Shown here: positions 3,767 to 49,467 of the stretch, in pieces | How positions within the stretch are numbered: the first letter of the stretch is position 1 | How the letters are laid out: the number at the start of each line of letters is the position of its first letter | Assembly (NCBI GenBank): GCA_016934825.1 | Contig: JAFGSB010000130.1 | Coordinates: forward strand, 1 to 50,079 | Reading direction: 5' to 3' | Length of the DNA stretch: 50,079 bases | From: Candidatus Zhuqueibacterota bacterium | Lineage (GTDB): Bacteria; Zhuqueibacterota; Zhuqueibacteria; Residuimicrobiales; Krinioviventaceae | Translations under genes and position numbers: made by a program | The notes under the pieces: generated by a model | The model's input: the letters and a program-made list of their open reading frames with translations, nothing else | What the model was told of the DNA's origin: nothing | Databases searched by the model: none

Positions 3767-4393
3767 ATGGTTGTCTTAATAGTCGTATTAATGTTTGTTA
3801 TTTTCATAGGGATCGGCTTAATCAGAGAATACTCATTAAAAAAGAAATCCTCTGAAGCTGAGTCCACTATTGAGAATTTTGGAACTGAACTTGCTTCCGA
3901 AGTTTTTGTTCATCCAAGCCATACTTTTGCCAAAGTCGGATCTGACGGCGTGGTTATGGTCGGTATGGATGAGTTTGCTCGCCGGGTTTTTGGTTTTGTC
4001 AATCCGATTGATTTACCGGTTGAGGGCAAAAAAGTCAAACAGGGTGATAAAGCCTGGAGTATCGTTTTCCGGTCCAAGAAAATTGAACAAATCATTCCTG
4101 TCGACGGTGATGTCATTCAGGTCAATAAAGATCCGCTCAGCTTAAACGACTGGATATTAAAAATTAAACCGACTCATCTTAAAGAAAATATTAAAAATTT
4201 ATTGCCGACATCATTCATTGCCGACTGTTTTAAAGAGATCAAAGAAAAGTATGTAAAAAATCATTCCCAAAAATTTGCCTATACGCTGGCATACACCTTG
4301 CAAGACGGCGGTGATTTGATTGAAGGATTCAGCGAATACTTTTCCGATTCTCAATGGAACGAATTTTATAACAAATATTTTCAACACAAATAA
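3767..4393 (+). CDS. Membrane-anchored GcvH-like (lipoyl/biotinyl-fold) protein 1
   Basis: This 208-residue protein has one N-terminal membrane helix (residues 1-19), a linker, a GcvH-like barrel at about 50-140 and a C-terminal extension holding QDGG (179-182). The barrel is recognisable by GKKVKQGDK, PVDGDVIQVN and DWILKIKP, which mirror the H-protein pattern. At the position of the lipoylated lysine (eight residues before P111) there is S103; K104 and K105 are adjacent, so modification is doubtful. Known H-proteins carry aminomethyl groups; here the setting is a membrane redox operon and no glycine-cleavage genes are near. Its role is unknown; a carrier or scaffold of the neighbouring complex is a guess. 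It is the first gene behind a sigma-54 promoter. Confidence 0.8.
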   Translation: MVVLIVVLMFVIFIGIGLIREYSLKKKSSEAESTIENFGTELASEVFVHPSHTFAKVGSDGVVMVGMDEFARRVFGFVNPIDLPVEGKKVKQGDKAWSIVFRSKKIEQIIPVDGDVIQVNKDPLSLNDWILKIKPTHLKENIKNLLPTSFIADCFKEIKEKYVKNHSQKFAYTLAYTLQDGGDLIEGFSEYFSDSQWNEFYNKYFQHK

Positions 4394-30963: not shown

Positions 30964-31365
30964 TTATCTTTTTGACTGGCAGCAAGCCAGTAACGCATCA
31001 TGCGCTTGTTCGTCGCGTTTTCTGTCGTTGGCGTCATAGCCGCTTGCCGTAATGGCGTTTTCAATATCCTCTGTTTTAACTTTATCGGCGTCATAATTGA
31101 TATGGGCCTTTTTTTTCTCCAGATCAACCTTAACGGATTCCACGCCTTGTACATTATTAACCGCATTTTCTATTGTGTTGACGCAATTATCGCATTGAAT
31201 CGTCGGTAACGAAATCATTACATGACTTATGGTTTGTTTGGATGAATCCTGCTCGTGTTGGAGCATTTTCATTTCCGGGTTATGATCTGAATGATTATGT
31301 TCTTTTTTATCCCCGGCAAATGCGGCGATAGTAAATAATAATAAAAACGATACGATATTTTTCAT
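30964..31365 (-). CDS. Periplasmic heavy-metal-associated (HMA) protein
   Basis: This 133-residue protein has a signal peptide (about 1-17), a His-rich segment (KEHNHSDHN), an HMA ferredoxin-like domain (about 46-112) with the metal site C58-D-N-C61, and a C-terminal Cys pair (C128, C129). Last gene of the efflux operon, 53 bp after the CusA-like gene. It occupies the place of CusF, so a periplasmic copper/silver chaperone for the pump is the likely role, although the fold differs from CusF. Confidence 0.88.
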   Translation of the reverse strand: MKNIVSFLLLFTIAAFAGDKKEHNHSDHNPEMKMLQHEQDSSKQTISHVMISLPTIQCDNCVNTIENAVNNVQGVESVKVDLEKKKAHINYDADKVKTEDIENAITASGYDANDRKRDEQAHDALLACCQSKR

Positions 31366-31418: not shown

Positions 31419-34400
31419 TTAATGATTTACCGGTTCCTGCAATCCTTTTCCTTTCCATAAATAATAAATGGCCGGTATAACAATCAAAGTTAATATTGTG
31501 GATGTAATTAAACCGCCGACCATGGGCGCGGCAATTCTTTTCATCACCTGGGAACCCGTACCATGACTCCACATGATGGGCAACAATCCCATAATGGTCG
31601 TCATAACGGTCATCAATTTGGGCCGTACCCGTTCAACAGCGCCGTGCACGACGGCCTCGTGCAAATCGGCAAGAGTGTTCATCCTGCCTGATTTTAATTT
31701 TTCTTTATATGCGTTGTCGATATACAATAACATTACAACGCCTGTTTCCGCGGCGATCCCCGCAAGCGCGATAAAGCCGACCGCAACGGCAACACTGGTA
31801 TTATAGCCGCTGAGCCACATTAACCATACCCCGCCGACCAGGGCAAACGGCAGGGAAAGCATGATAATCAGGCCTTCGGTGATGTTTTTGAAATTAAAAT
31901 AAAGCAAAAGAAAAATAATCATCAAAGTTATCGGCACAACCAGTTTTAATCGTGCCTGGGCCCGCTGCATATATTCATACTGTCCACTCCAGACAATGCT
32001 GTAACCCGCGGGGAAGCGGATGCGGTCATTCACAACTTTTTGGGCATTTTTCACATATGTGCCGACATCAATATCTCTCAGATCCACATAGAGCCATGCC
32101 GTTCGTCTGGCGTTTTCACTTTTGATTCCGGCCGCGCCTTTTTTGATTACAAGGTCCGCGACCTGTCCCAGCGGCACCTGCGCTCCGGTTGGTGTGGGTA
32201 TCAAAACACGCTTCAGGGCATCCAGGTTGTCGCGCAGTTCACGACTGTACCGGACGTTAACGGGGTATCTTTCAAGCCCTTCCATGGTTGTCGTGACATT
32301 CATGCCGCCAATTGCCGACATGATTACATCCTGCACATCGCCGACGGTAAGGCCGTACCGCGCGGCCGCTTCCCGGTTTATCGTAAAGTCCAGATAATTT
32401 CCGCCGGTTACGCGCTCGGATATTACACTGGCGGTCCCTGGAACGGTTCGAATGACCGCTTCGATCTCCTCGCCCAGGTCGCTCAGCGTCTGCAAATCAG
32501 GCCCCATCAGTTTGATGCCGACCGGCGTTTTTATGCCGGTGCTTAACATATCGATTCTTGTTTTGATCGGCATGGTCCAGGCATTGGTCAAGCCGGGAAA
32601 CTGGACGGCGTTATTGAGTTCCTCGATCAGTTTGTCAATTGTCATATCTTTACGCCAAAATTTTTTATCCTTCAGCGTGATCGTTGTTTCGATCATTGTC
32701 AGCGGCGCAGGGTCTGTTGCTGTTTCCGCCCGGCCGATTTTACCGAATACCGATTCCACTTCCGGAAAAGTCTTGATGATCTTGTCCGTTTGTTGTAACA
32801 GTTCTTTGGCTTTGGTAATGGATATGCCCGGCAATGTGGTCGGCATATATAGTAAATCGCCTTCATTTAAAGGAGGCATAAATTCAGAGCCCAGCCGTGT
32901 TAACGGGAAAAAGCTGGCAAGAACAATTAAAAAAGCAACCAGAATTGTTCCGATTTTGTGTTTTAACACGAAATGAATGACCGGCCGGTATAACCTGATC
33001 AATACCCGGCTTAACGGGTGCTTGTCTTCCGGTTTGATTTTACCCCGGATAAGGTATCCCATTAAAACCGGTACTATGGTAATCGCCAGCAGGGCGGAGG
33101 CGGCCATGGCGTAGGTCTTTGTGAAAGCCAGCGGCTTGAATAACCGCCCTTCCTGCTGCTGCAGTGTAAATACGGGTAAGAAGGACAGTGTAATAATCAA
33201 CAGGGAATAAAATAAAGAAGGACCGACTTCTTTGGACGCTTTCAAAATCAACTCCCAGTGATCTTTTTCGTTGCGGGGCGTCTCACGCTCCATATGTTTA
33301 TGCGCGTTTTCTATCATCACAATGACCGCGTCGACCATTGCCCCGATCGCGATTGCAATTCCTCCGAGCGACATGATATTGGCGTTCAGTCCTTGCGCCC
33401 GCATGACGATAAAGGCCAACAGAATTCCCAGGGGCAGGGTAAAGATCGCCACAAATGAACTGCGCAGGTGCAGAAGAAAAACCATAATGACCAGAGCCAC
33501 GACGATACTTTCTTCGACCAGTTTTTCCTTCAGGGTGCCGATGGCCCTTTTGATCAGGGATGACCGGTCATACGCCGTTTTTATGGTTACGCCTTCCGGC
33601 AAACCTTTTTTCAACTGCTCCAGCTTGACTTTGACATGATCTATGACTTTTAATGCATTTTCGCCGTAACGCATTACGACAACTCCGCCCACCGTTTCAC
33701 CCTCGCCGTTCCATTCGGCGATACCGCGGCGCAGTTCAGGCCCGATATGAACATTGGCGATGTCCTTTAATAATATGGGCGCATTGTTTGGCCCCATGCC
33801 TACCGGGACATTCTTCAGGTCATTGACAGACTTTATATATCCAAGTCCACGTACCATAAATTCGGTTTCACCCATTTCAATCAGCCGGCCGCCAACGTCG
33901 TTATTGCTGCGTTTGATTGCCATACGAACTTTTTGAATGGGTATGTTATAGGCCTGAAGTTTAAGCGGATCGACCTCCACCTGGTATTGCTTTACAAATC
34001 CGCCGATGCTGGCAACCTCGCTGACTCCCGGTACGCTTGCCAGTTCATAGCGTAAATACCAGTCCTGTATGGAGCGTAATTGCTGCAGGTCGTACCTGTC
34101 CCCGCCGTCCAGAATATATTCATAAACCCAGCCGACACCCGTGGCGTCGGGTCCGAGCTGCGGAGTAACGCCCTGTGGCAGCCGGCTTGCCGCAAAGTTG
34201 AGATATTCGAGCACTCGGCTTCTGGCCCAGTATAGATCGGTTCCGTCTTCAAAAATGATATATACCATTGAAAAACCGAAAAATGAATAACCCCGTACAA
34301 CCTTGGCGTACGGTACCGACAGCATGGCCGTTGTCAGGGGATAGGTTACCTGGTCCTCAACGACATTCGGTCCCTGTCCGGCAAATTCGGTGTATATGAT

Positions 34401-34541
34401 GACCTGTACGTCGCTCAAATCGGGGATCGCGTCCACCGGCGTATTTTTGATCGAATAGAAACCGGCAACTATAATAACGGTCATCCCGATGAGAACCAGT
34501 ATCCGGTTATTAACGGACCATTCAATTATTTTTTCCAACAT
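31419..34541 (-). CDS. cusA: CusA/CzcA-family heavy-metal RND efflux pump
   Basis: This 1,040-residue inner-membrane proton antiporter has the twelve-helix RND layout with two large periplasmic loops. The opening segment (DAIPDLSDVQVII, GYSFFGFSMVYIIF) and ARYGLTVGDVQ match the Cu/Ag branch. Methionines in RIDMLSTGIKTPVGIKLMG lie where CusA binds Cu(I). Helix 4 keeps the acidic relay (GAMVDAVIVMIENAHKH). It would export copper or silver through the CusB-like adaptor and TolC-like channel encoded just upstream in the operon (48-bp gap to cusB). Metal choice is inferred from sequence similarity. Confidence 0.93.
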   Translation of the reverse strand: MLEKIIEWSVNNRILVLIGMTVIIVAGFYSIKNTPVDAIPDLSDVQVIIYTEFAGQGPNVVEDQVTYPLTTAMLSVPYAKVVRGYSFFGFSMVYIIFEDGTDLYWARSRVLEYLNFAASRLPQGVTPQLGPDATGVGWVYEYILDGGDRYDLQQLRSIQDWYLRYELASVPGVSEVASIGGFVKQYQVEVDPLKLQAYNIPIQKVRMAIKRSNNDVGGRLIEMGETEFMVRGLGYIKSVNDLKNVPVGMGPNNAPILLKDIANVHIGPELRRGIAEWNGEGETVGGVVVMRYGENALKVIDHVKVKLEQLKKGLPEGVTIKTAYDRSSLIKRAIGTLKEKLVEESIVVALVIMVFLLHLRSSFVAIFTLPLGILLAFIVMRAQGLNANIMSLGGIAIAIGAMVDAVIVMIENAHKHMERETPRNEKDHWELILKASKEVGPSLFYSLLIITLSFLPVFTLQQQEGRLFKPLAFTKTYAMAASALLAITIVPVLMGYLIRGKIKPEDKHPLSRVLIRLYRPVIHFVLKHKIGTILVAFLIVLASFFPLTRLGSEFMPPLNEGDLLYMPTTLPGISITKAKELLQQTDKIIKTFPEVESVFGKIGRAETATDPAPLTMIETTITLKDKKFWRKDMTIDKLIEELNNAVQFPGLTNAWTMPIKTRIDMLSTGIKTPVGIKLMGPDLQTLSDLGEEIEAVIRTVPGTASVISERVTGGNYLDFTINREAAARYGLTVGDVQDVIMSAIGGMNVTTTMEGLERYPVNVRYSRELRDNLDALKRVLIPTPTGAQVPLGQVADLVIKKGAAGIKSENARRTAWLYVDLRDIDVGTYVKNAQKVVNDRIRFPAGYSIVWSGQYEYMQRAQARLKLVVPITLMIIFLLLYFNFKNITEGLIIMLSLPFALVGGVWLMWLSGYNTSVAVAVGFIALAGIAAETGVVMLLYIDNAYKEKLKSGRMNTLADLHEAVVHGAVERVRPKLMTVMTTIMGLLPIMWSHGTGSQVMKRIAAPMVGGLITSTILTLIVIPAIYYLWKGKGLQEPVNH

Positions 34542-34589: not shown

Positions 34590-36347
34590 TTAATTAACTT
34601 TTTCCAGTTTCATGCCGCAAACCGGGCATTTGCCGTTTTTATCGGTCGTTACAAAGTCAGTATGCATGGGACATGTATACATTTCCGCTTTCCCGAGATC
34701 GACCTTGTCGCCCAATTCACTTACGGCGGTTAATTTCATCCCGCATACCGGACACCGTCCCTCCGGATCGCTGGTGATAAAATCCGGGTGCATCGGGCAG
34801 GCGTAAAGTTCATGTACGTGTTCTTTATGTGAATCCGTCATGTGGGCATCTGTCATTTCTTCGAATTTTTGTGTTAAAGACGATTCGACTTTTTCATGCT
34901 CATAACCTTCATGTCCATTTTGCGAATGCCGCATTGTGGTATCCGGTTCGGCGGCCGGGCTATGTTCGGTTTGCCGGTTCGCCGTTCTCATTTTCGCGAT
35001 CGCTTCGCGCGTCCGGCTTTCCGAATCCAGCAGGAATTGTCCCGATGTTACGACAATTTCATTTTCAAAAAGACCGGAAACGACCTGTACATAACCTTCA
35101 TCACTCTCGGCGCCGATCTTGATTTCACGCGGTTCGAATTTCCCGTTTGCTTTGGCTATAAATACGATATTCCGGCTGCCGGAACGGATAATCGCTTCCG
35201 ACGGAACGGCAAGTACATTGGATAACGATTGATTGAAAATCCGCACCGTCGCAAACATATCCGGTTTTAATAATTCATTCTGATTTGGAAATACGAGACG
35301 AACATTAGCCGATCCGGATTTTTCGTCAAGATATGGATAAATAAAGTCCACCTGTCCCGTTAATATGTCGCTATTTACATAGTCCAGTTCGAGCAAAGCT
35401 TTTTGTCCTTCTTTTATTAAAAGCAATTCCGATTCGTAGACGGTCGCTTCGACCCAGATTTTACTCAAATCGGATATATGAAAAAGGTCCATACCGGGTG
35501 CGACTTTATCGCCTTCAACCACTGCTTTATGGGTAACAATTCCGTTAACGGGCGCGCGAAGCAGGATGGTCCTTTTTACCTGTTTTGTGTTCTCCAGCTT
35601 TGTTATTTCATCCGCAGGTATATCCCAGAATTCCAGCCTGTTCCGCGCGGAGGCAAGCATCGTTTCCGCGCCGGATTTTACATTTTCAAAACCGCTTTCG
35701 GATAATTTTTCAAAATTATTTAATGCCAGTAAATACTCTTCCTGCGTCGACACGAGCTCCGGTGAATATATTTCCAGTAACGGATCGCCTTTTTTTACCC
35801 TCTGCCCGGTGGTATTGACATAAAGTTTTTCAATCCAACCGTTAATTTTTGTATTAACGGAATACTGTTTATCCTGGGCATAGGTCACTTTTCCAAAAGC
35901 GCGAATGATCCTGTTAATATTCCTTTTTGTTACGGGCGCGGTCCGTAAATTCATGTTTTGCTGAATTGTGCCGTCAACAGTGATGCTGCCGGCGCCCCCG
36001 GCTTCCTCGCCTTCACGAACCGGGATCAAATCCATACCCATTTTACTTTTTCCGGGTTTATCATATATCTCCGTGGGGTCCATCGGCGCGCGCCAGTATA
36101 ATATTTCACCTGTTTCAGTTTTTGTATGCTCAGTTCCGCTTCCTTTTATCGGGGTCAGTTTCATACCGCAGATCGGACAATTTCCGGGTTTATCGGAAAT
36201 GACCTCAGGATGCATACCACAGGAATACAGTTGTTTGGCTGTCCCGGTTTCAGATGTCACATTTGTATTTTCCTGTAAAAGAAAATATGCGGCGGCTGCT
36301 CCGATCAGCAAACCAATAAATAATCCCGCGATTAATTTTGATTTCAT
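34590..36347 (-). CDS. cusB: CusB-like membrane fusion protein with four heavy-metal-binding modules
   Basis: This 585-residue adaptor has an N-terminal anchor (about 5-24), then two HMBD modules: YSCGMHP...CPICGMKLTPI, and a second without cysteines (YWRAPMDP...KMGMDLIPV). The barrel-sandwich, hairpin and beta-barrel parts of the adaptor core span about 125-450. A His/Glu-rich linker (about 465-510) leads to two more complete HMBDs (YACPMHPDF...CPVCGMKL and YTCPMHTDF...CPVCGMKL). CusB is normally about 400 residues; the C-terminal pair is extra and may collect metal near the pump. Start has GGAGT 7 bp upstream. Confidence 0.93.
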   Translation of the reverse strand: MKSKLIAGLFIGLLIGAAAAYFLLQENTNVTSETGTAKQLYSCGMHPEVISDKPGNCPICGMKLTPIKGSGTEHTKTETGEILYWRAPMDPTEIYDKPGKSKMGMDLIPVREGEEAGGAGSITVDGTIQQNMNLRTAPVTKRNINRIIRAFGKVTYAQDKQYSVNTKINGWIEKLYVNTTGQRVKKGDPLLEIYSPELVSTQEEYLLALNNFEKLSESGFENVKSGAETMLASARNRLEFWDIPADEITKLENTKQVKRTILLRAPVNGIVTHKAVVEGDKVAPGMDLFHISDLSKIWVEATVYESELLLIKEGQKALLELDYVNSDILTGQVDFIYPYLDEKSGSANVRLVFPNQNELLKPDMFATVRIFNQSLSNVLAVPSEAIIRSGSRNIVFIAKANGKFEPREIKIGAESDEGYVQVVSGLFENEIVVTSGQFLLDSESRTREAIAKMRTANRQTEHSPAAEPDTTMRHSQNGHEGYEHEKVESSLTQKFEEMTDAHMTDSHKEHVHELYACPMHPDFITSDPEGRCPVCGMKLTAVSELGDKVDLGKAEMYTCPMHTDFVTTDKNGKCPVCGMKLEKVN

Positions 36348-36378: not shown

Positions 36379-37656
36379 TTATTGAATACCGACCCGGCCG
36401 ACTATTTGTTCAAATTCCGCCAGGGATTTCCGGTAATCCGCATATGCTTTATATAATTGTAATTGATAATTCTGTAACATTGTCCAGTTATTGATTAATG
36501 TTAAAAAATCAACTTTATTTACCTGGTAGCCGGTTACAGCCGCATCCAGCGATTGTTGTGCCTGTAATAAAATTCCACCCTCATAAAGTTGTATTCGTTT
36601 TTTAGTCATATCCAATTCCGCCAGAATTGAAGTTTTGTCCGCTTTGATCTGATTGATTATATTTTCATATTCCGAATAGACGGAATTCCGATTGATTTCC
36701 TTTTCCCGGACTTTGGTTTTTTGTTTTCTTCCCATATACAGGGGTACGTTTAATGAAACAGTTGCGGAAAAAAAGTCGTACATAACCATGCCGCTTTTCA
36801 GATTATCCCGCTGGCTGTAACTGGCACCCAGGGTGAAATTCGGCCAGTAGTCTTTTTTGGCCAATTTTATTGACGATTCCGCTTTATTTAACATTTCCTG
36901 CCATACTCTTGCCAGCGGCCTGGTTTGTTCAATATTGATATTGTTTAATTCCGTTACGTATTCGTTATAAAAAACAATTTCTTTTGCGGTCACCGGGACG
37001 GGTGTATCGGGATCCCGATTCAACAAAGAATTTAATAAGGCTTCTGCGGCTTTTCTTTTTTGCCCCCACAAAATCAAATCGTCTTCAAGTTTGGATAATT
37101 CCAGTTGCGAGCGCAATACATCCTGCTGTAATCCCGTTCCTGTCGTATATTTGGTTTCGGCAATAGTGACAAACTGCCGCATGAACTCCCGGTTTGTTTT
37201 AACCGTTTCGATGGCACGGTCAATCGTATATAGATTATAGTAAACTGTTTTAACACGGGTAATGATATAATTACGTGTTTCCAGACTTTTATATCTGGCG
37301 ATTTTTGCGTTGTACTCCGCAATATCGGTAGCCAGGCCCAATTTCCCGGGAAAAGGGAACATCTGCACGACAGATACCAGTTTTCCCGTCATGGGCTCCT
37401 GGTTGAATTCAAAACTGTTCACCGGCATATTCATCAAACCAAAAGTAAACTGGGGATCGGGCAGAGCCCCTGCGCCCGGAACCGCTTCTTCCGCGGCTTC
37501 GTATTTATAGTTTTCCGCTTTTAGCATTGGATTGTTATTTAATGCCTGTTCAATAAGTCCGCTCAGTTGTTCGGTATTTGTATCCTGTGCAAAAACAACA
37601 CCTGCCGGGACAATAATACAAAGAATACTAAAAATCAGATTCTTCCGGATTTTCAT
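36379..37656 (-). CDS. TolC/CusC-like outer-membrane efflux channel
   Basis: This 425-residue protein has a signal peptide (about 1-23, ending VFAQ) and two OEP repeats, each with long amphipathic helices and short barrel strands (ARYKSLETRNYIITRVKT, TLGASYSQRDNL). No lipobox, so unlike E. coli CusC it is not a lipoprotein. Encoded 31 bp ahead of the adaptor gene; together with the CusA-like pump it forms a complete tripartite system. Its start overlaps the end of the upstream small membrane protein gene by 29 bp. Confidence 0.9.
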   Translation of the reverse strand: MKIRKNLIFSILCIIVPAGVVFAQDTNTEQLSGLIEQALNNNPMLKAENYKYEAAEEAVPGAGALPDPQFTFGLMNMPVNSFEFNQEPMTGKLVSVVQMFPFPGKLGLATDIAEYNAKIARYKSLETRNYIITRVKTVYYNLYTIDRAIETVKTNREFMRQFVTIAETKYTTGTGLQQDVLRSQLELSKLEDDLILWGQKRKAAEALLNSLLNRDPDTPVPVTAKEIVFYNEYVTELNNINIEQTRPLARVWQEMLNKAESSIKLAKKDYWPNFTLGASYSQRDNLKSGMVMYDFFSATVSLNVPLYMGRKQKTKVREKEINRNSVYSEYENIINQIKADKTSILAELDMTKKRIQLYEGGILLQAQQSLDAAVTGYQVNKVDFLTLINNWTMLQNYQLQLYKAYADYRKSLAEFEQIVGRVGIQ

Positions 37657-37921
37657 TTTTTTTCACTTTCTTATTTTGAGTTAATAATTTTATATTCCAA
37701 AAGGTCACAACAATACTAAACCACCATAAAATTCCATAGGGGACAATATAATGTTGAGGTAATTGACAATGTGCTTCATTTAATGTGATTCTGTTGTTTG
37801 TGAAAAGGGACAGTTTTTCTCCGATACACGAATTGTTTGTTTGTATACGGACCGGGAAAAATAAAATAAATCCCGTCATTCCTGTTAACAACAATAAAAT
37901 TTTTATTTTTTTGTTTTTCAC
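37628..37921 (-). CDS. Small membrane protein at the head of the efflux operon
   Basis: About 97 residues with two membrane helices: one near the start (KIKILLLLTGMTGFILFF) and one near the C-terminus (YGILWWFSIVVTF). The loop between holds two Cys and two His (NSCIGEKL, EAHCQLPQH), suggesting periplasmic metal binding or a disulfide. Starts: ATG 37948 lies upstream of the predicted sigma-54 start site (37942), so GTG 37921, with GGAAAA before it, is preferred for that transcript. No family recognised. It overlaps the TolC-like gene by 29 bp, so translation is coupled. Confidence 0.6.
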   Translation of the reverse strand: MKNKKIKILLLLTGMTGFILFFPVRIQTNNSCIGEKLSLFTNNRITLNEAHCQLPQHYIVPYGILWWFSIVVTFWNIKLLTQNKKVKKNENPEESDF

Positions 37922-37953
37922 ATTTTTTCCATTTTGTTTTTTACTCATATTAG

Positions 37954-37968
37954 GCAAGGTTTATACCA
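37954..37968 (-). promoter_or_regulatory. Sigma-54 promoter of the metal-efflux operon
   Basis: On the minus strand TGGTATAAACCTTGC has GG and GC in the required 12-bp register and the invariant TTGC. Transcription would begin near 37942. Two dyad sites lie about 100-140 bp upstream, and a sigma-54 activator is encoded directly beyond them. Confidence 0.7.
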
Positions 37969-38043
37969 CAATAAATATTTTATATAAGTGAAATATAAAT
38001 AGATATTTATTCATGTCTTTAAGTTTTACGTTGGTCATAATAC

Positions 38044-38080
38044 TGTATAATATTCTACATTAATTGTATAATATTCTACA
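38044..38080. promoter_or_regulatory. Tandem 16-bp activator-binding dyads (UAS)
   Basis: TGTATAATATTCTACA occurs twice without mismatch, at 38044-38059 and 38065-38080, a 21-bp offset equal to two helical turns. Each copy is an imperfect palindrome (TGTA...TACA with one mismatched pair inside). They sit about -102 to -138 from the predicted start site, the textbook position for enhancer sites of a sigma-54 activator, most likely the one encoded at 38176-39516. Confidence 0.7.
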
Positions 38081-38175: not shown

Positions 38176-39516
38176 TCAGGAGATTCCCAGTTTTTTCATT
38201 CTGTAAATAAGTGTATGACGGGGGATTTCGAGTTGTTTGGCCGCTTTGGTCTGGTTCCCGTTATTGGCATTCAGGGCGTCAATGATTGCCTGTCTTTCAA
38301 TATTTTCCAGACTCATCGGTGAGGTCGTATTTGTAGATGATATATTTTTATCGGTTATTTGCAGGTCGAGGCAATCTTCCCGCAGTTCATTATCCTTGCA
38401 TAAAATAATTGTTCGTTGTAAAATATTTTCCAGTTCACGAATATTTCCGGGCCAGTGATAATCTTTCAGCTTTTGCAGGAATGGGGGATGTATTTTTAAT
38501 TCGTGGTCAGAATATTTATTAACAAAATGTTTGGTGAGTATTTCGATATCATCTTTTCGTTCGCGCAGGGGAGGGATATGTAACGGAATAACGTTGAGCC
38601 GGTAATAAAGGTCTTCACGGAATGTCCTCTCCCGGACAAGCGACGCCAGATTCTGATTTGTTGCCGCAATAATGCGTACATTTACTTTTATCGGTTTCAC
38701 CCCGCCGACCCGTTCAAATTCCTGTTCCTGGAGTACACGCAATAATTTGGCCTGCAGGTCCGGTTTCAGATCACCGATTTCGTCCAGGAATATCGTTCCG
38801 TTATCGGCGATTTCGAATTTACCGGGTTTGTCCCGAAACGCCCCCGTAAAAGCCCCTTTTTCATGTCCGAACAGCTCGCTTTCAATGAGAGTCTCAGGGA
38901 TGGACGGACAATTGACCGTCACGAAAGATTTATCTTTACGCGGAGAATTGTGATGTATGGCGCGCGCCAGTAATTCTTTACCCGTACCGCTTTCTCCGGT
39001 AATCAGAACACCGGCATCGCTTTGCGCCGCCCGCCCGGCGATTTCCAGCAGGGAAATCATTTTTTTATTTTTGGAAATTATCTTATCGAATTGATATTTT
39101 TCTTCCAGCTCAAAGTATAGCCGTAAATTTTCCTTTTCAAGCTGTCTGAATTTAAGCGCTTTTTCAATCGTGAAAAAAAGTTGTTCCCTGGCAAAGGGTT
39201 TGGTCAGATAATCATCGGCGCCTTTTTGACAGGCCTGAACCGCATTTTCAACCGTTCCGTATGCGGTAATTATGATGATAATGATCTTTTCATCAAAACT
39301 GCGGATAAAATTCAATACTTCCATCCCGTTCATATCCGGCATTTGCAAATCGATCAGGGCGAAATCAAAAAAATCCGCTTTAAATTTATCAATTCCTTCC
39401 GTTCCGCTGTTTGCCACAGTAACCATGTATCCCAGACCCTGCAATTGATGGGATATGACGGTACTCAGGTTAATATCATCATCAACCAGTAAACATTTAT
39501 AATTGTATTTTTTCAT
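38176..39516 (-). CDS. NtrC-family sigma-54-dependent response regulator (ZraR-like)
   Basis: This 446-residue regulator has a receiver with VDDD and phospho-acceptor D56 (ALIDLQMPDMNG) and K in LTKPF, an AAA+ domain with GESGTGKE, GAFTGA and FLDEIG, and a Fis-type HTH (NQTKAAKQLEIPRHTLIYRM). Its start overlaps the kinase gene by 20 bp. The efflux operon begins about 220 bp beyond its stop on the same strand, with a sigma-54 promoter and paired dyads between, so it very probably switches on metal efflux, as ZraR and related regulators do. Confidence 0.94.
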   Translation of the reverse strand: MKKYNYKCLLVDDDINLSTVISHQLQGLGYMVTVANSGTEGIDKFKADFFDFALIDLQMPDMNGMEVLNFIRSFDEKIIIIIITAYGTVENAVQACQKGADDYLTKPFAREQLFFTIEKALKFRQLEKENLRLYFELEEKYQFDKIISKNKKMISLLEIAGRAAQSDAGVLITGESGTGKELLARAIHHNSPRKDKSFVTVNCPSIPETLIESELFGHEKGAFTGAFRDKPGKFEIADNGTIFLDEIGDLKPDLQAKLLRVLQEQEFERVGGVKPIKVNVRIIAATNQNLASLVRERTFREDLYYRLNVIPLHIPPLRERKDDIEILTKHFVNKYSDHELKIHPPFLQKLKDYHWPGNIRELENILQRTIILCKDNELREDCLDLQITDKNISSTNTTSPMSLENIERQAIIDALNANNGNQTKAAKQLEIPRHTLIYRMKKLGIS

Positions 39517-40666
39517 TATCGATATTAAACTCTATAGTAATCGCCGCTCCGTTTTTTTCCGTATTTTTTGCATAAATTCTGCCGTTATGACTCTCAATAA
39601 TTCGTCTGGTTATGGCCAAACCCAGTCCTGAGCCGTTTTCTTTCGTTGAATAAAAAGGCTCGAAAAGATGTGAAAGCACATCCCATGTAAAACCGGGTCC
39701 CGAATCAATGATATTGATCTGAATATATTTATTATATATACCGGATTCAATAAGGATTTTGCCCTTTGCCGGTGTTGCCTGAATGGCGTTGAGTAATATA
39801 TTCAGTAACGCCTGTCTGATTTGATTTTCATCACAGTTAATGTGTATATTTTCCGGGTTTATATTTATTTCAACCGTTAAATTATTTTTTCTGATTTGAA
39901 CGCCAAGTAATGAGATAGTGGAATTTATCATATCTTTTAACGATACCAATTGTTTTCGGGTTTCTCTTGGTTTTGCAAAAGTTAGATAATTGGTAACGAC
40001 GCTGTCCAGACGTTTTGTCTCTTCAAGCAGTATGTTTACAAATTTTTTATTGGTCTCGGATTTTGTATCATCCTGCAATATTTCCGCGGCGCCTCTGATT
40101 GATCCCAACGGATTACGAATTTCGTGCGCCAGGCTTGCCGTTAACTCGCCCAGAGTGGATAAACGTTCCGCTGTTCGAAGCTGGCTTTCTATTATTTCTT
40201 TTTCTTCAGTCGACTGTTTTAATTCCCGCAACGAGTTTGCCAGCCTTTCCGACGTATCCTGGTGGCGTTTGCTCTCCTGTTTTTCTTTTTGCCATAAATA
40301 TCCGGTCAAACTTCCGATAACATGATATAATAAAATCATCAGGAACCGGCTGATATTCATGACAAAATTGCCTCCCCATTGGAACATGACGTGAGGCAAG
40401 TAAAGGAATGTGATCACAAGCGCCGAGAAAAAACCGCCCTTTATACCATACAAAAAGGCAAAAATCAATATCGGCAGGAAATATGACGCTTTTAACAGTT
40501 CATGAACCGGATGTAATGTTGTTGAAGTCACATAGTGCATTAATGTGATAACAAGAATCAGTAATCCGCCTGTTATCGTTAAAATCAGGGAAGAGTCTGT
40601 GAGTTTTCCGGGTAATTTCGATATTTTATTTAAACCGTTAATTTTACGCCGCCTAAAGATTAACAT
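39497..40666 (-). CDS. Multi-pass membrane sensor histidine kinase
   Basis: This 389-residue kinase has an N-terminal bundle of four or five membrane helices (about 25-135) with almost no periplasmic domain, then a coiled coil (about 135-165). A HisKA domain follows with ASLAHEIRNPLGSIRG (phospho-acceptor His) and a HATPase with NQIRQALLNILLNAIQATP, DSGPGFTWDV and GSGLGLAI. Unlike ZraS it has no large periplasmic sensor, so it must sense within or near the membrane. It precedes and overlaps its regulator gene and starts 7 bp after the SDR gene. Confidence 0.93.
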   Translation of the reverse strand: MLIFRRRKINGLNKISKLPGKLTDSSLILTITGGLLILVITLMHYVTSTTLHPVHELLKASYFLPILIFAFLYGIKGGFFSALVITFLYLPHVMFQWGGNFVMNISRFLMILLYHVIGSLTGYLWQKEKQESKRHQDTSERLANSLRELKQSTEEKEIIESQLRTAERLSTLGELTASLAHEIRNPLGSIRGAAEILQDDTKSETNKKFVNILLEETKRLDSVVTNYLTFAKPRETRKQLVSLKDMINSTISLLGVQIRKNNLTVEININPENIHINCDENQIRQALLNILLNAIQATPAKGKILIESGIYNKYIQINIIDSGPGFTWDVLSHLFEPFYSTKENGSGLGLAITRRIIESHNGRIYAKNTEKNGAAITIEFNIDNEKIQL

Positions 40667-41806: not shown

Positions 41807-44800
41807 CTATTTTGTTTTGATGATCTTAACCGCTTTGTTATATTTTTTCGACTCAAATTGAACAATATAAATCCCGCTGGGCGCTTGTTTGCCGTTTTCA
41901 TCCCGGCCGTCCCAGTTTATTTTGTAATTGCCCGCATTTTGTGTTGTGTTCAACAATTCACGGACTTTTTGTCCGAGCGTATTATAAATGACCAGTTTAA
42001 CCTCACACCCTTCGGCAACGGAATAACTCAGATTTGTCGACGGATTAAACGGGTTCGGATAATTCTGCTTCAGATCGAAATGTTCCGGAATTTCTTCAAC
42101 CGCGACATTCCATTCCTGCGGCGAATCAACCCGTTTGCCGTCTATTTCATAATTCATCAGCCGGAAATGTGTATTATTGATATTTATTTTGGCTAATTTT
42201 TTAAAGGTGATGTTCAGCAGATTGGTATCTTTAATCTCGTCAGCGCTCGCAACAGCAATGCGTAGCGTGCCGTTCTGCTCATGAAATGCAAGCATGATGT
42301 TTTCGTTCTCCCGCGTTAGAGATACGTTTTCCACCTGAAGCAAATCTTTACCAAATTCCAGTTCAAAACCAACCGAGCTGAATGAAGGAACGCTTTTTAT
42401 TCGTACCGGCAATTCCAGCATATTGTCGGTTAATGATTTTATTTCTCCCGGAACGACTGTGCCGTAACCCGCTTTGGCCAGCATCGAGCCGGGGTAATTA
42501 CCGCTGACATCGCCGATAAGAATGCCGTTAAAATTCTGGTTGGCCTGATCGCTGTTCAACGGCGTGTAACTGCGGGTCGTTACCGGACTGAGCCAGTCCG
42601 TTACAGGGGGCACGATAAATTTCCAATTACCGATATCGAATGCTGAAATATCCAGACCGACCACATACCTAAGAATAATCGAGGCGTCGAAGGGGCTGAT
42701 TTCTGCATTATTACTGGCGTCCGCCGCGATTTTTTGTCCCTCGGTTAATGTTATGCTGTGTACGTAATACCGAAGGATGAAAGATGCATCGAAAGGAGAG
42801 ATGGAAACCTCCGGGCTGTTGTTTTTTATTTTGGAAACTGAAACGGAACAAATACCTGCCGGCATATTGATAAATTCGTAATGACCGGAAGTATTTGTAT
42901 TGACGGTTAAAGTTGTATCGCCCATCAGGTCGACAGTAACACTATCGATTGGAATTGTATTGTCCATATAATATGTTATCGTTCCGCTGATATTGTATGT
43001 TTCGGAAGATGCGCATCCAAATGTCACCAGCGGGGAGGACCAATAGTAATTGTTATCATGTTCATAACCCTCCGCGACCTCGTCCTGATAATCAATAATA
43101 AAACCGGCATAGTATGTATCCGGCGGTATCGGATTGTTTGTTTCACAAAATTCGTCCAGGTCTTTGTAATTGGTTTTGGTAACAAAGGAACCGACAGCTA
43201 AACCGCTCACATAACCGGTGGTGATCAGATAATCAAAAGTCGTAATCGAGTCATTGGCCGATAAATACCATCCTATGCGGAATTCACCGGCTGTGTCATT
43301 ACCATTATTTTCCACACTTGTATGAAATGTAATGACATGGCTCGTGTCATCATAACTGAAAGTATTATTGGAACCGGCGTCCGTATATAATGTTAAATTG
43401 GCATAACAGCCGATATAATTTATAGTTGTAGTAAAATAAAACCGGTTGTCATTTTCATCAAATTCATTAATATTAAATTGATCATCGATAAATACACCAA
43501 CATAATATTCTCCGGGTGGAATCTGTTCGGAACCGCCGCAATAGCCGTCAAGGTCTTTGGATGCGGTTGCCGTAATAAATGCTCCTTTTGACAGATTGCC
43601 GACATAATAAGAGTCGACAAAATAATCTTCCGTGGTTATAATCGTATTCCCGGAAACATACCAGCCTACCCGAAAACCACCGGCGTTGGTGTCGCCGTTG
43701 TTCTGTATGCTGAACGATAAATTCAAACGGTGATGAGACGTTAGATAAGAAAAATTGTTTTTAGCGCCCGGACCGGTATATTCAGTTAGATTGGCTTTTC
43801 CGCATTGCCAGTTGACAGGTGTTGTAAAATACCAGTCATTATCAGTTTCATCGGACTCGCTTACAGTGTTTTGATAATCTATCAGGAAACCGACATAATA
43901 AGTGCCGCTCGGCAGCACGCTGCAGGAAAAATCATCCAGGTCTTTACCACGGCTGGTATTCACATAAGCTCCCGGTGCGAGACCGTTAACGGAATAGTCC
44001 GCCAGAAAAATGTCAGTGGAAGAGATTATCGTATTATCCGACAAATACCATCCTACGCCAAATGCCCCGGCAGAGTCCGGGCTGTCATTTTCAACACTGC
44101 AGTGAAGTATTAAAAGATGTGTGGATGTATCGTACGAATAGATGTTATCCGATCCCGTACCGGTATAAAGGGTTAAATTGGGATCTCCGGGTGACCAGTT
44201 TATCGGTAAATCCCAGTATCCGGTATTATCATTTTCATTAGACTCGCTCACCTGTCCCAAATAGTCAATTATAACACCGGGGTAATAGGTCCCGGGAGAA
44301 AGACTGCCGACTGTAACCAGGTCGATGAAGCCGTTTGTATTGGTATAATTGCCGACATTTAGCATACTGACTGAATTATAAAAAAGTAATGTATCGCCGG
44401 TGTCAACTGTACTATCGGTCGATAAATACCAGCCCACCCTGAAAACACCGGCATTACCGTCACCTGTGTTGCCGACAGCTATATTAAATGTGATTTGGTG
44501 TGTTGTTGAGTTGTAAGAGCAGCTACTGTCCGAAGCGGGGTAAATAATCAGGTTTGGCGCAGCGGCGGTATTTTCAATTCGACTCCCGCTGCCGATAACC
44601 TGTTTTTGCAACTGTAAATTTTGTCTGTCCGGTATTTTTATTCCATCATAAAAAGTGAAAGTATTGTTTCCCGGCATCGAATTCTGATTTTCTTTTACAG
44701 CGGTCTCCCGGCCTACTGACTTTTTTACATTTGATGAAGTGATTTTTGTATCGACCTTTCTCGATGTATTCTCGGATGAAATCTGTTCTTTGTTATCAAA

Positions 44801-45001
44801 AGCCGTATGTGTATGCCCGGAACCACCCGTCTCGGGTTTATCTTCGATCAAATTCCCCTGCATATCAAAAACCTTTACGGACCTGTCCTCCCCGATAACG
44901 ATCTTGTACTGCGGCCGCACACCTTGCTCTTCACCGGCGATGATGATTGAATAACTTATAAAAAACCAGATGAAAAGAGGTAATAGCCACTGCTTATACA
45001 T
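41807..45001 (-). CDS. Secreted CARDB-dockerin-cohesin protein with C-terminal sorting domain
   Basis: This 1,064-residue protein has a signal peptide (about 1-22), a Ser/Thr/Asn-rich linker and four CARDB-like repeats (about 148-665). Each repeat starts NLT-x-YTG-type and contains GWYLS...GTYY-x-G-x-x-IDY. A carboxypeptidase-regulatory-like domain (YNISGTITYY) follows, then a dockerin-like duplicated calcium motif (EISPFDASIILRY twice). Next is a cohesin-like domain (PGEIKSL to TFKKL), then the NYPNPFNPST sorting/FlgD-like tail ending KAVKIIKTK. The tail directs export and surface attachment in FCB bacteria. The last ~300 residues closely match the neighbour at 45507, so the two arose by duplication. 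No catalytic domain seen. Confidence 0.85.
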   Translation of the reverse strand: MYKQWLLPLFIWFFISYSIIIAGEEQGVRPQYKIVIGEDRSVKVFDMQGNLIEDKPETGGSGHTHTAFDNKEQISSENTSRKVDTKITSSNVKKSVGRETAVKENQNSMPGNNTFTFYDGIKIPDRQNLQLQKQVIGSGSRIENTAAAPNLIIYPASDSSCSYNSTTHQITFNIAVGNTGDGNAGVFRVGWYLSTDSTVDTGDTLLFYNSVSMLNVGNYTNTNGFIDLVTVGSLSPGTYYPGVIIDYLGQVSESNENDNTGYWDLPINWSPGDPNLTLYTGTGSDNIYSYDTSTHLLILHCSVENDSPDSAGAFGVGWYLSDNTIISSTDIFLADYSVNGLAPGAYVNTSRGKDLDDFSCSVLPSGTYYVGFLIDYQNTVSESDETDNDWYFTTPVNWQCGKANLTEYTGPGAKNNFSYLTSHHRLNLSFSIQNNGDTNAGGFRVGWYVSGNTIITTEDYFVDSYYVGNLSKGAFITATASKDLDGYCGGSEQIPPGEYYVGVFIDDQFNINEFDENDNRFYFTTTINYIGCYANLTLYTDAGSNNTFSYDDTSHVITFHTSVENNGNDTAGEFRIGWYLSANDSITTFDYLITTGYVSGLAVGSFVTKTNYKDLDEFCETNNPIPPDTYYAGFIIDYQDEVAEGYEHDNNYYWSSPLVTFGCASSETYNISGTITYYMDNTIPIDSVTVDLMGDTTLTVNTNTSGHYEFINMPAGICSVSVSKIKNNSPEVSISPFDASFILRYYVHSITLTEGQKIAADASNNAEISPFDASIILRYVVGLDISAFDIGNWKFIVPPVTDWLSPVTTRSYTPLNSDQANQNFNGILIGDVSGNYPGSMLAKAGYGTVVPGEIKSLTDNMLELPVRIKSVPSFSSVGFELEFGKDLLQVENVSLTRENENIMLAFHEQNGTLRIAVASADEIKDTNLLNITFKKLAKININNTHFRLMNYEIDGKRVDSPQEWNVAVEEIPEHFDLKQNYPNPFNPSTNLSYSVAEGCEVKLVIYNTLGQKVRELLNTTQNAGNYKINWDGRDENGKQAPSGIYIVQFESKKYNKAVKIIKTK

Positions 45002-45506: not shown

Positions 45507-48500
45507 TTATTTTGTTTTAACGATTTTGACCGCTTTATTAAAAGTGTCCGTTTCGAATTGAACGATATAAATGCCGCTTGGCGCTTCTTTGCCGATTTCA
45601 TCCCGGCCGTCCCATAGAATTTCGTAATTGCCCGCAATCTGTGTTAAATTTACCAATTCGCGGACCTTTTGCCCGATAGTATTATAAATAACAAGTTTTA
45701 TCGAACTTTTTTCCGCAACGGAATAACAGATCTTTGTCGACGGGTTGAATGGATTCGGATAGTTCTGTTTCAGGTCGAACTGTTCCGGCAGCTTTTCAAC
45801 GGCAACTAACCATTCCTGCGGTGAATCGACACGTTTCGCGTCGATTTCATAATTCATCAGCGTAATTTTTATATCATTATTATTGGCGCCCGTTTTCTTT
45901 TTAAAGACAATATTCAGCAGGTCGGTATCTTTTAATTCAACAGCGCCGGCAACCGCGACACGTAACGTACCGTTCTGTTCATGAAAAGCCAACAGCACCT
46001 GTTCATTTTCCCTTGCGAGTGAAACGTTCTCGACCTTAAGGGCACTGTTATTTATTTTCAGTTCAAAACCGACCGCACTGTACGAAGATACGCCTTCTAT
46101 ACGGATCGGCAGTTCCAGCATATTACCTGTCAGTGATCTCATCTCTCCAGGAACAACAGTACCGTCTCCTGCTTTGGCCAGCATGGAGCCGGAATAATTT
46201 CCGGTGATGTCACCAATCAGGATGCCGTTAAAATTCTGGTTCGTTTGACTGCTGCTCAGTGATGTATAACTTCGTATTGTTGTCGGACTGAGCCAGTTTG
46301 TTACCGGAGGTACGACAAATTTCCATTTGGCGACCTCATACTGTGATACATCCTGACCAACATAATAACGAAGAATGATCGACGCGTCAAATGCTGTGAT
46401 CTCACCGTTACCGCTGACATCCGCAGCTATTTTTTGTTCTTCGTTCAATGTTATTAAACTTGCCCAAAAGCGCAGGGCATAAGAAGCGTCAAATGTGGAA
46501 ATGGCGCTTTCAGTTTGTGAATTTCTGGGTTTTGACGCGGTTAACTGGTAATTTGCGCCGCTCACCAGATTGGAAAATTCATAAAAGCCGGATGCGTTAG
46601 TCATAACTGAATTTGTTAAACCGCCTGATATATCAATTTTTACATCCTGTAGTTCGGGACTACCCGTGTAATATTTCGCAGATCCCGACAAAACAAGGGA
46701 GGAGGAGCATGAAAATGTGACTTTGCCGTTTGATGTACTGACAATCGGGGAACCTTCGTTAAACAGGAAATTCTGGAAATTAAGATTGACAAATTCACCA
46801 TCAGTATGGTTTTTAACAGCCCTGAAAGTGATTTTGACCAGGGTCCCGCTGCCTGATAAAACAGATGAGCCTGCGCTGGCAATAGTCACCATACCTGTCG
46901 ATGAATATTGGGTTGGAGCTCCCCACCCGGAAGTGATGGTTCCGTCTGAACTCACTCCGGTTACTTCCAGATCGCCGCTGTTGAATAAGAGATCAAAACC
47001 ATACGCATATATTTCTTCTCCTGTAACATCCTCAACTTTTACTGCCGCGACAAATGTATCGCCGTTATTACATCCACATGTCAAATCCTGATCGATCGAC
47101 ACCTGTATTGTTTGTCCCGGATCACAGCCGTTCCATGTTACGGTTGGCGATGTCCACACATGATCATTATCAAACTCATTGGATTCGGCAACTTGATCAT
47201 TATAATCTATAACCGCACCGGCGTAATATGTGCCGACAGGTATTTGATCACAGATTTCATCCAGATCTTTACTGCCGGTTATATTGATATTGGCATCTTT
47301 ATTTAATCCGGCAAGAAATTCAGAAGTTATCAATTTGTCACTTGTATTAATATTTTGATCAATTGATAAATACCAGCCGATTCGAAAGCTGCTGGAATTA
47401 TCCGATCCGTTATTTATAATTGACGAACTGAAATTAATTACACCTGTCGAGGAATTGAAACTAAAACTGTTATCTGAACCCGATCCGGTATATATGGTCA
47501 GATTTGGTTTCAGGGAACTTGGACCGGTCCAGTTAATTGTGCCGGTATCCACCCATGTGTTATCATCCTCGTCGGTTTCATCGACTTCACCGAGATAGTC
47601 AATATATACCCCGGCATAATATGTTCCGGCCGGCAACTCCGCCAGTGAAAAATTGTCAAGATCGATCGTACCTGTGAGATTTGTATACTGACCACCCGGC
47701 AAATTACTATAATCCGCTGATGTGACAAGATAATCACCAGGATCAACAATATTATCAGTCGATAAATAATAACCGACATAAAAATGATTCACTGTTTCGG
47801 AACCGCTGTTTTCCACGCTGGTATTAAAACTGCAAACATGGCTTGCAGTGTCGTATGTAAATGAATTATTCGCTCCCGTTCCGCTATAAATACGCAAGTT
47901 TTTATCCTCGGATGTTTGCGTCGTTACGGTATATGAATAACCGCCGCTGCTGTTGTGTGCCTGCGCAACCAAAACGATCTGAGAATATGTACTGCCAAAA
48001 TCCGGGACAGATTTTGTGCCGGTTATGCTTTCAACGGCATTTTGCGTTGAACCCAGTTTCAGCAGTAATCCCGATACAGGGCCGGTATAGTCAAAACTTG
48101 CGCTGGCACCATTTGTAAACTGGATATAATCCGATGCGTACTTGTTAACCGAACCTGATGATGAGGCCGGATATGAACCGTGTGAATTGTCAAACGATAT
48201 CGGGTATGACGATAAATCAATATTACTGTAGCCATATTGACCTGTACCAATCGAAGTATCGTCAAGAAAGTTTGCGGCAATCCAATCCGTAAAAATATTA
48301 TTAAAGGGTGTTGAATAACCCTGACCACTCAAAGCTATTTCGACTCCCGATATCCCGTTGGCAGATTCCTGAACAAGAGCTTTGATTGAGGGGGCGCCGC
48401 CATACTTTTCATATAAATATAATATGAACAAAAAAGTCTGTTCATAATCATCCAACGTTTGACTCCACAGGGTCAATTGATTATCGGGACTGGTAAAAAA

Positions 48501-49304
48501 GTGGCTTGGTTTTCTCCAGCCATACCCGCATATAAATTCGGCGTAGCCGGAACATCCTTCATTTATCCAGGTTTCTTCGTTCCCGTCTTCGTTAAAATGT
48601 ATCATGTGCTGAAATTCATGCGCCAGGGTTCCGTAAAATTGGTTACTGCCCGGAGTTGCCGGATTACAATCCATATAGAACATTTCTCTTTGATTGCTCT
48701 GGTAATTGGTTGTTTCATCATAAGGATCAAAATAGCCCGCAATATAAGACGATCCGCTTCCATAATAATAATTATCTTTAATATTATAGATCAGAATGGT
48801 CACTTTATCATCGCCGTCTATGCCGGGTTTCCATTCGCTACCAAAATGGGCTCTGTCGGTTGGATATATGTGTAAATCAAATTCATTTTTAATGGCATCT
48901 ATTGTAGTTTGATTTATTGATTCGATATCATGGACATAAATATAACAATTCGAACCAACTGCTTTGCATGTTGCCTGAATTTGTTCCACAGTGCTATATT
49001 TAAAGTTCCAGGTCCAAAAGTCAACCTGCTGTCCGACATAATCCTCGATGATATTACCTTCGGTATCCATTTTCCCCAAACTGATTAATTTTTCTTTTGA
49101 TAATGCAGATCTTGTTAATCCCTGTTGTAAGAAAATTTCATACTTTTTATGAAATCCGCAAAATCCAACAAGATCACTATCATTTTCCAGACTTTTGATT
49201 TCTTGTGACGGATTTTGATTGCTTTGCGCATTTGCCCCACTCAAATTAAAAACAAAAAATACACAGAGAATCAAAATTAATAAAGTACTGTTATTCACAC
49301 GCAC
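45507..49304 (-). CDS. Secreted zinc peptidase with CARDB, cohesin, dockerin-like and sorting domains
   Basis: This 1,265-residue protein has a signal peptide ending near GANAQ. An N-terminal peptidase region (about 50-400) contains HEFQH (H229, E230, H233) and WINEG about 18 residues on, the gluzincin pattern seen in hyicolysin (M30)-like enzymes. Two CARDB repeats follow, then a first cohesin-like domain (YGFDLLFNSG...FNEGSP), a carboxypeptidase-regulatory-like domain, a dockerin-like pair (ISTFDASYALRF and DVSGNGEITAFDAS), a second cohesin-like domain and the sorting tail. GTG 49304, 7 bp after AGGAG, is preferred over TTG 49322, which precedes that site. A surface-attached peptidase is likely; substrate unknown. 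Confidence 0.85.
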   Translation of the reverse strand: MRVNNSTLLILILCVFFVFNLSGANAQSNQNPSQEIKSLENDSDLVGFCGFHKKYEIFLQQGLTRSALSKEKLISLGKMDTEGNIIEDYVGQQVDFWTWNFKYSTVEQIQATCKAVGSNCYIYVHDIESINQTTIDAIKNEFDLHIYPTDRAHFGSEWKPGIDGDDKVTILIYNIKDNYYYGSGSSYIAGYFDPYDETTNYQSNQREMFYMDCNPATPGSNQFYGTLAHEFQHMIHFNEDGNEETWINEGCSGYAEFICGYGWRKPSHFFTSPDNQLTLWSQTLDDYEQTFLFILYLYEKYGGAPSIKALVQESANGISGVEIALSGQGYSTPFNNIFTDWIAANFLDDTSIGTGQYGYSNIDLSSYPISFDNSHGSYPASSSGSVNKYASDYIQFTNGASASFDYTGPVSGLLLKLGSTQNAVESITGTKSVPDFGSTYSQIVLVAQAHNSSGGYSYTVTTQTSEDKNLRIYSGTGANNSFTYDTASHVCSFNTSVENSGSETVNHFYVGYYLSTDNIVDPGDYLVTSADYSNLPGGQYTNLTGTIDLDNFSLAELPAGTYYAGVYIDYLGEVDETDEDDNTWVDTGTINWTGPSSLKPNLTIYTGSGSDNSFSFNSSTGVINFSSSIINNGSDNSSSFRIGWYLSIDQNINTSDKLITSEFLAGLNKDANINITGSKDLDEICDQIPVGTYYAGAVIDYNDQVAESNEFDNDHVWTSPTVTWNGCDPGQTIQVSIDQDLTCGCNNGDTFVAAVKVEDVTGEEIYAYGFDLLFNSGDLEVTGVSSDGTITSGWGAPTQYSSTGMVTIASAGSSVLSGSGTLVKITFRAVKNHTDGEFVNLNFQNFLFNEGSPIVSTSNGKVTFSCSSSLVLSGSAKYYTGSPELQDVKIDISGGLTNSVMTNASGFYEFSNLVSGANYQLTASKPRNSQTESAISTFDASYALRFWASLITLNEEQKIAADVSGNGEITAFDASIILRYYVGQDVSQYEVAKWKFVVPPVTNWLSPTTIRSYTSLSSSQTNQNFNGILIGDITGNYSGSMLAKAGDGTVVPGEMRSLTGNMLELPIRIEGVSSYSAVGFELKINNSALKVENVSLARENEQVLLAFHEQNGTLRVAVAGAVELKDTDLLNIVFKKKTGANNNDIKITLMNYEIDAKRVDSPQEWLVAVEKLPEQFDLKQNYPNPFNPSTKICYSVAEKSSIKLVIYNTIGQKVRELVNLTQIAGNYEILWDGRDEIGKEAPSGIYIVQFETDTFNKAVKIVKTK

Positions 49305-49467
49305 GGTATTACTCCTCAGCAAAAAATACTGTACATTTAATTTACTTTATAAAATTACAAATAACCAAAATAATATAATTATTTTAATATAATAAATATT
49401 CCTTACTTTGGATAAATGAATTTTTTTACTTTTAGGGTTACAAGATCATATTAAGATAATTATTATT

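Follow-up and report, generated by a model that had tools for sequence, protein, structure and literature searches.

Introduction

The described systems that come closest to the locus analyzed here are CorSR of Myxococcus xanthus and, in Escherichia coli, ZraSR and CusRS/CusCFBA. CorSR, which is associated with the curA copper operon, comprises a copper-induced NtrC-type regulator and a kinase, and putative sigma-54 promoters have been described for it. The regulator possesses the domains Response_reg, Sigma54_activat and HTH_8, the targets include a P1B ATPase and a multicopper oxidase, and the kinase CorS contains a periplasmic sensor domain, one membrane segment and a HAMP domain; the accessible text of the report names no Cus RND set for the operon and gives no operator (PMC3707914). 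ZraSR, which responds to zinc/lead and includes zraP and zraSR among its genes, likewise employs a sigma-54 activator as the response regulator for metal stress, and the structure of ZraR has been solved. E. coli CusR, on the other hand, is an OmpR-type regulator that works with sigma-70. To our knowledge, most NtrC-type response regulators in environmental genomes are without a known target.

The window, by which we mean the whole stretch of 50,079 nucleotides of Candidatus Zhuqueibacterota DNA that was analyzed, contains a locus that shares with CorSR and ZraSR the layout of a membrane kinase, an NtrC-type response regulator and sigma-54. Its regulator agrees with that of CorSR in all three domains, and P1B ATPases and multicopper oxidases recur among the targets in related genomes, although the phylum differs and the kinase lacks the sensor architecture of CorS. 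Since CorSR, according to the accessible part of its description, is an NtrC-type system that responds to copper, has putative sigma-54 promoters and shares some kinds of targets with this locus, the mechanism itself is of a kind already known. The window regulator also matches ZraR by sequence, and Spy/CnrX-like targets in the relatives resemble ZraP; however, the targets here are copper export genes, and membership in ZraSR was rejected because both proteins scored far under the equivalog cut-offs (ZraR, 401.6 of 760 bits; ZraS, 188.4 of 479 bits). The likeness to CusRS/CusCFBA lies in the output, a Cus-type CusCBA pump in which the Met triad of CusA is kept, whereas the regulator is of the sigma-54 NtrC type, with HTH_8 and a sigma-54 domain instead of an OmpR-type winged helix, and the kinase is unlike CusS; assignment to CusRS was rejected accordingly, and no CusF domain was found. 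A matching system was found neither in the accessible text on the Desulfovibrio sigma-54 regulome (PMC4641369) nor in that of a multi-phylum sigma-54 survey (PMC12316311). We found no published account of the operator and regulon described below, nor any report of the palindrome TGTAGAATATTCTACA in the literature searched, and consider the operator previously unreported.

Organization of the locus

The genes run leftward on the minus strand in the order kinase, regulator, control region, small protein, TolC-like, CusB-like, CusA-like and HMA protein. We consider it very likely that the control region serves a copper/silver efflux operon as its promoter and upstream activator sequence, with dyads bound by the regulator. 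The features are as follows:

39497-40666, minus: sensor histidine kinase; its N-terminal domain, in which H44, H55 and H92 are invariant, is embedded in the membrane, and a large periplasmic domain is absent
38176-39516, minus: NtrC-type response regulator with a receiver, a sigma-54 AAA+ domain with GAFTGA, and a Fis HTH with the recognition helix PRHTLIYRMKK
38065-38080, no strand: distal dyad TGTATAATATTCTACA, at about -123 to -138, kept in relatives
38044-38059, no strand: proximal dyad TGTATAATATTCTACA, at about -102 to -117, 21 bp from the distal dyad
37954-37968, minus: sigma-54 -24/-12 box TGGTATAAACCTTGC, separated by 75 bp (often 73-78 bp in relatives) from the nearer edge of the dyad pair
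37942, minus: putative start of transcription, set 12 nt after the C of GC by applying the standard sigma-54 convention to the sequence
37628-37921, minus: small protein with two predicted membrane segments, first operon gene here and in relatives, likely GTG start at 37921
36379-37656, minus: TolC/CusC-like outer membrane efflux protein (PF02321)
34590-36347, minus: CusB-like periplasmic adaptor with four heavy-metal-binding domain stretches (PF19335)
31419-34541, minus: CusA-like RND pump, in which M573/M623/M672 of CusA are kept as M566/M616/M665
30964-31365, minus: HMA-domain copper-binding protein with a likely signal peptide (TIGR00003 above cut-off), last gene of the cluster

The regulator showed the layout of an NtrC-type sigma-54-dependent response regulator, with PF00072, PF00158 and PF02954 in that order and, in the translation, a Walker A sequence (GESGTGKE) and the GAFTGA loop. 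In agreement with the original prediction that a sigma-54 activator is encoded directly upstream, its ORF ends 95 bp before the dyad pair in the order of transcription. At the other end of the control region, neither of the two earlier starts of the first ORF, TTG (37957) and ATG (37948), is located downstream of the predicted transcription start, so that the coding start is probably the GTG at 37921-37919; relatives of the small protein begin at about the matching place. This protein matched nothing in Pfam or NCBIfam; its ORF (37628-37957, minus) displays the pattern GFILFFP ... Cys ... P..LWW.S. The pump aligned with CusA over its whole length and scored above the cut-off of TIGR00914, as a CusA/HME-RND copper-silver pump should, and the Met triad argues for Cu(I)/Ag(I) as its substrate.

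The dyad pair and its probable sigma-54 promoter

Re-matching confirmed the two identical copies of TGTATAATATTCTACA within the region originally noted, with a start-to-start offset of 21 bp. At up to 3 mismatches, 10 matches were obtained in the window against 0.82 expected, a number reached by no shuffle. Each copy is an imperfect palindrome, symmetric at 14 of 16 positions and broken by T5 versus C12, and both differ from the family consensus TGTAGAATATTCTACA by one base, the change being the same in each. The genome scan for the dyad pair that had been suggested as a check was carried out with up to 3 mismatches summed over both dyads, and no further pair was found in the rest of the 5.39-Mb genome. 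Single near-matches elsewhere in this genome (C13, C72, C79, C81, C128, C144, C151 and C166), all without a convincing sigma-54 box, were set aside as chance occurrences.

The promoter placed on the minus strand at 37968-37954 held up as well: the GG-to-GC spacing of TGGTATAAACCTTGC is canonical, and the box has the top sigma-54 score within its 260-bp flank (mono-shuffle p = 0.003). By convention, the start of a sigma-54 transcript is placed 12 nt beyond the C of GC, which predicts a start at about 37942. The dyads, originally placed some 100-140 bp before the promoter, extend from about -102 to -138, an arrangement typical of a sigma-54 promoter with upstream activator sites (a canonical GG/GC box, with paired dyads 80-150 bp before the start).

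Taken together with what is known of the protein families, these elements would form the following switch. The membrane kinase (39497-40666) would respond to an excess of Cu(I)/Ag(I), or to the effect of that excess in the envelope, by phosphorylating the regulator (38176-39516), whose Fis-type HTH dimers would then bind both 16-bp dyads, a binding to which the sites and their conservation point. Because the dyads are two turns apart, they face the same side of the helix. Their occupation would nucleate an AAA+ oligomer, which may contact sigma-54 RNA polymerase at the -24/-12 box by looping over about 7 turns, and ATP hydrolysis by the AAA+ domain would open the promoter, as is known for the family. 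The transcript from near 37942 would encode the small membrane protein, CusC/TolC, CusB, CusA and the HMA protein, the products of which would export the metal. Such a switch is well supported, and it represents a mechanistically ordinary metal response.

The proposed operator across the phylum

The dyad-pair pattern was present in 6 of 60 genomes, namely the window's own and five relatives; the reversed control gave 0 matches in these six and 1 match in one other genome. A pair lies directly downstream of an activator orthologue in G002, G007, G035 and G055, and G006 and G047 hold pairs of slightly different spacing next to their orthologues; in all six, the pair is close downstream of the orthologue and ahead of a Cus operon. 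In three more (G024, G037 and G043) a site precedes a Cus operon elsewhere on the same contig, and no site was found beside the orthologue in L074, L075, L076, L080 and L086. The family consensus TGTAGAATATTCTACA is a perfect palindrome, which occurs in exact form in 14 of the 63 genomes of the class and in 17 of the 82 across the phylum, while its reversed control matched none.

A box of the type TGGCAY-N5-TTG (GG...TTG) was located 50-132 bp from the site in 40 of the 46 site entries listed. Seventeen of the gaps measured 73-78 bp, and the others fell mostly near 62-65, 83-88, 96-97, 117-121 and 131-132 bp; over 21 unique gaps, phasing near 11 bp exceeded a smooth null (p = 0.0008). Boxes had been picked by score and partly by gene direction, never by distance, and the direction of the promoter in relatives was likewise partly chosen by score.

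It was also observed that the -12 element beside the dyads often reads TTGA or TTGT in place of TTGC (A 16, T 15, C 7 and G 2 among 40 sites in L073-L148). In the window's own genome, TGGCAY-N5-TTG-N-WW occurred 51 times, as opposed to 14 for the reversed control; C, A and T were present at about equal frequency and G was rare. These A/T-rich counts and the enrichment suggest a relaxed -12 element in this lineage.

The proposed regulon and its probable inducing metal

The genes behind the sites in relatives included Cus-type RND operons and P1B ATPases, the latter either possessing YHS and HMA domains or exceeding the curated cut-off for the TIGR01511 copper type, as well as multicopper oxidases, PII-like proteins, DUF5676 proteins and Metal_resist/LTXXQ-like (Spy/CnrX-like) proteins that scored below the Pfam cut-offs. 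Genes for LGT, RseC and an S15 peptidase, which are not obviously copper genes, were located behind some sites. Since the Cus RND operons, copper P1B ATPases, multicopper oxidases and Spy/CnrX-like proteins point to Cu(I)/Ag(I), we infer that the sites are the operator of a phylum-wide copper regulon and not of a generic metal response. The role in efflux that was originally assigned to the control region was thereby supported, while "metal" could be narrowed to copper/silver by these targets and the Met triad of CusA. In two genomes, the dyad is followed first by the gene for a PII-like protein (L083:3586-3984 and L084:15704-16165) and then by that for a copper P1B ATPase.

The same circuit could be driven by a broader metal or envelope-stress signal, received through the membrane domain of the kinase, with copper/silver not itself the inducer. 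The kinase is without a CusS-like periplasmic domain, and the Spy/CnrX-like, RseC and LGT genes among the targets would fit such a signal; we nevertheless regard it as rather unlikely, because several of the targets are specific to copper (the multicopper oxidases, the TIGR01511 ATPases and the CusA with its Met triad). For the N-terminal membrane domain of the kinase, which is possibly an uncharacterized sensor domain, no Pfam family scored above cut-off. Residues H44, Y45, T47, H55, P65, H92 and W97 are invariant across 13 orthologues, and one may speculate that the three His residues bind copper. A wider proposal is tentative and somewhat less likely than not: the sigma-54 copper regulon would span the phylum and depend on a single activator clade and a single palindrome, the kinase would detect copper within the membrane through an unnamed domain with the three invariant His residues, and the -12 element would accept A or T in place of C.

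The regulator as probable reader of the dyads

Orthologues of the activator, called at a best match of about 51% identity or more, were present in 21 of the 82 phylum genomes. The exact palindrome was found in 14 of these 21 versus 3 of the 61 genomes without an orthologue (Fisher p = 2.6e-8, a value to be taken only as a guide since related genomes are not independent). The window's own genome, with its near-exact copies, is one of the 7 orthologue-bearing genomes that have no exact palindrome. In a tree with 21 paralogues, the orthologues formed one clade with 100/100 support, and each of them carries the recognition helix PRH[VTI]L[IL]YR (PRHxLxYR), which occurred in none of the paralogues examined. 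A search of the contig collection with the regulator returned mostly paralogues at 40-48%; when 12 paralogue-bearing genomes were searched whole, an orthologue was detected only in G084 (Ignavibacteriales), and it had no adjoining site. The constancy of both recognition helix and operator makes this regulator the best candidate for reading the dyads, and the comparison, through co-occurrence, pairs beside orthologues and a clade-specific helix, thus favors the earlier proposal that the dyads are the operator of the regulator at 38176, which very probably reads them.

Were the dyads bound by a different regulator, such as a copper repressor acting independently or an NtrC-type activator other than this one, their nearness to the activator gene would reflect operon layout. 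The genomes do hold many paralogous activators, and the palindrome without a detected orthologue in G012, G064 (97% complete) and G068 indicates that a different activator may read it there. As an account of the sites in general this is improbable, given that the palindrome co-occurs strongly with this activator clade, that the recognition helix is constant only inside it, and that the sites lie at the distance of upstream activators from the sigma-54 boxes and not over them. A chance coincidence of AT-rich repeats with a -24/-12 match can be dismissed, for although the region is AT-rich and 16-mers of such make-up arise by chance at 2-3 mismatches, the comparative data and reversed controls rule it out: conservation is phylum-wide with zero control matches, and 294 genomes of another class yielded two matches, neither with a sigma-54 box.

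With the regulator of 38176-39516 as the probable reader, what began as a guess at a single locus becomes an operator-regulator-regulon assignment for a little-studied phylum, comprising an exact operator sequence, a regulator clade whose recognition helix is diagnostic, and a list of copper genes. The dyads and the -24/-12 box also offer a ready architecture for a copper-responsive promoter.

Other features of the window

A high-scoring sigma-54-like site, TGGCATACACCTTGCA (4287-4302, plus), is situated inside the end of one ORF and directly precedes genes that were identified by eye, namely the second one for a lipoyl-like protein, one for a ferredoxin-type protein, and one for an NrfD-like membrane protein that ends in a multi-Cys stretch at its C-terminal side. 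Upstream of this lipoyl/ferredoxin/NrfD-like redox cluster, an ORF of 535 aa (1301-2908, minus) resembles an IS21-type transposase by eye. Two large secreted proteins are encoded on the minus strand at 41807-45001 and 45507-49322, in which repeated CARDB-like segments, dockerin-like stretches and C-terminal tails like those of type-9 secretion were recognized by eye.
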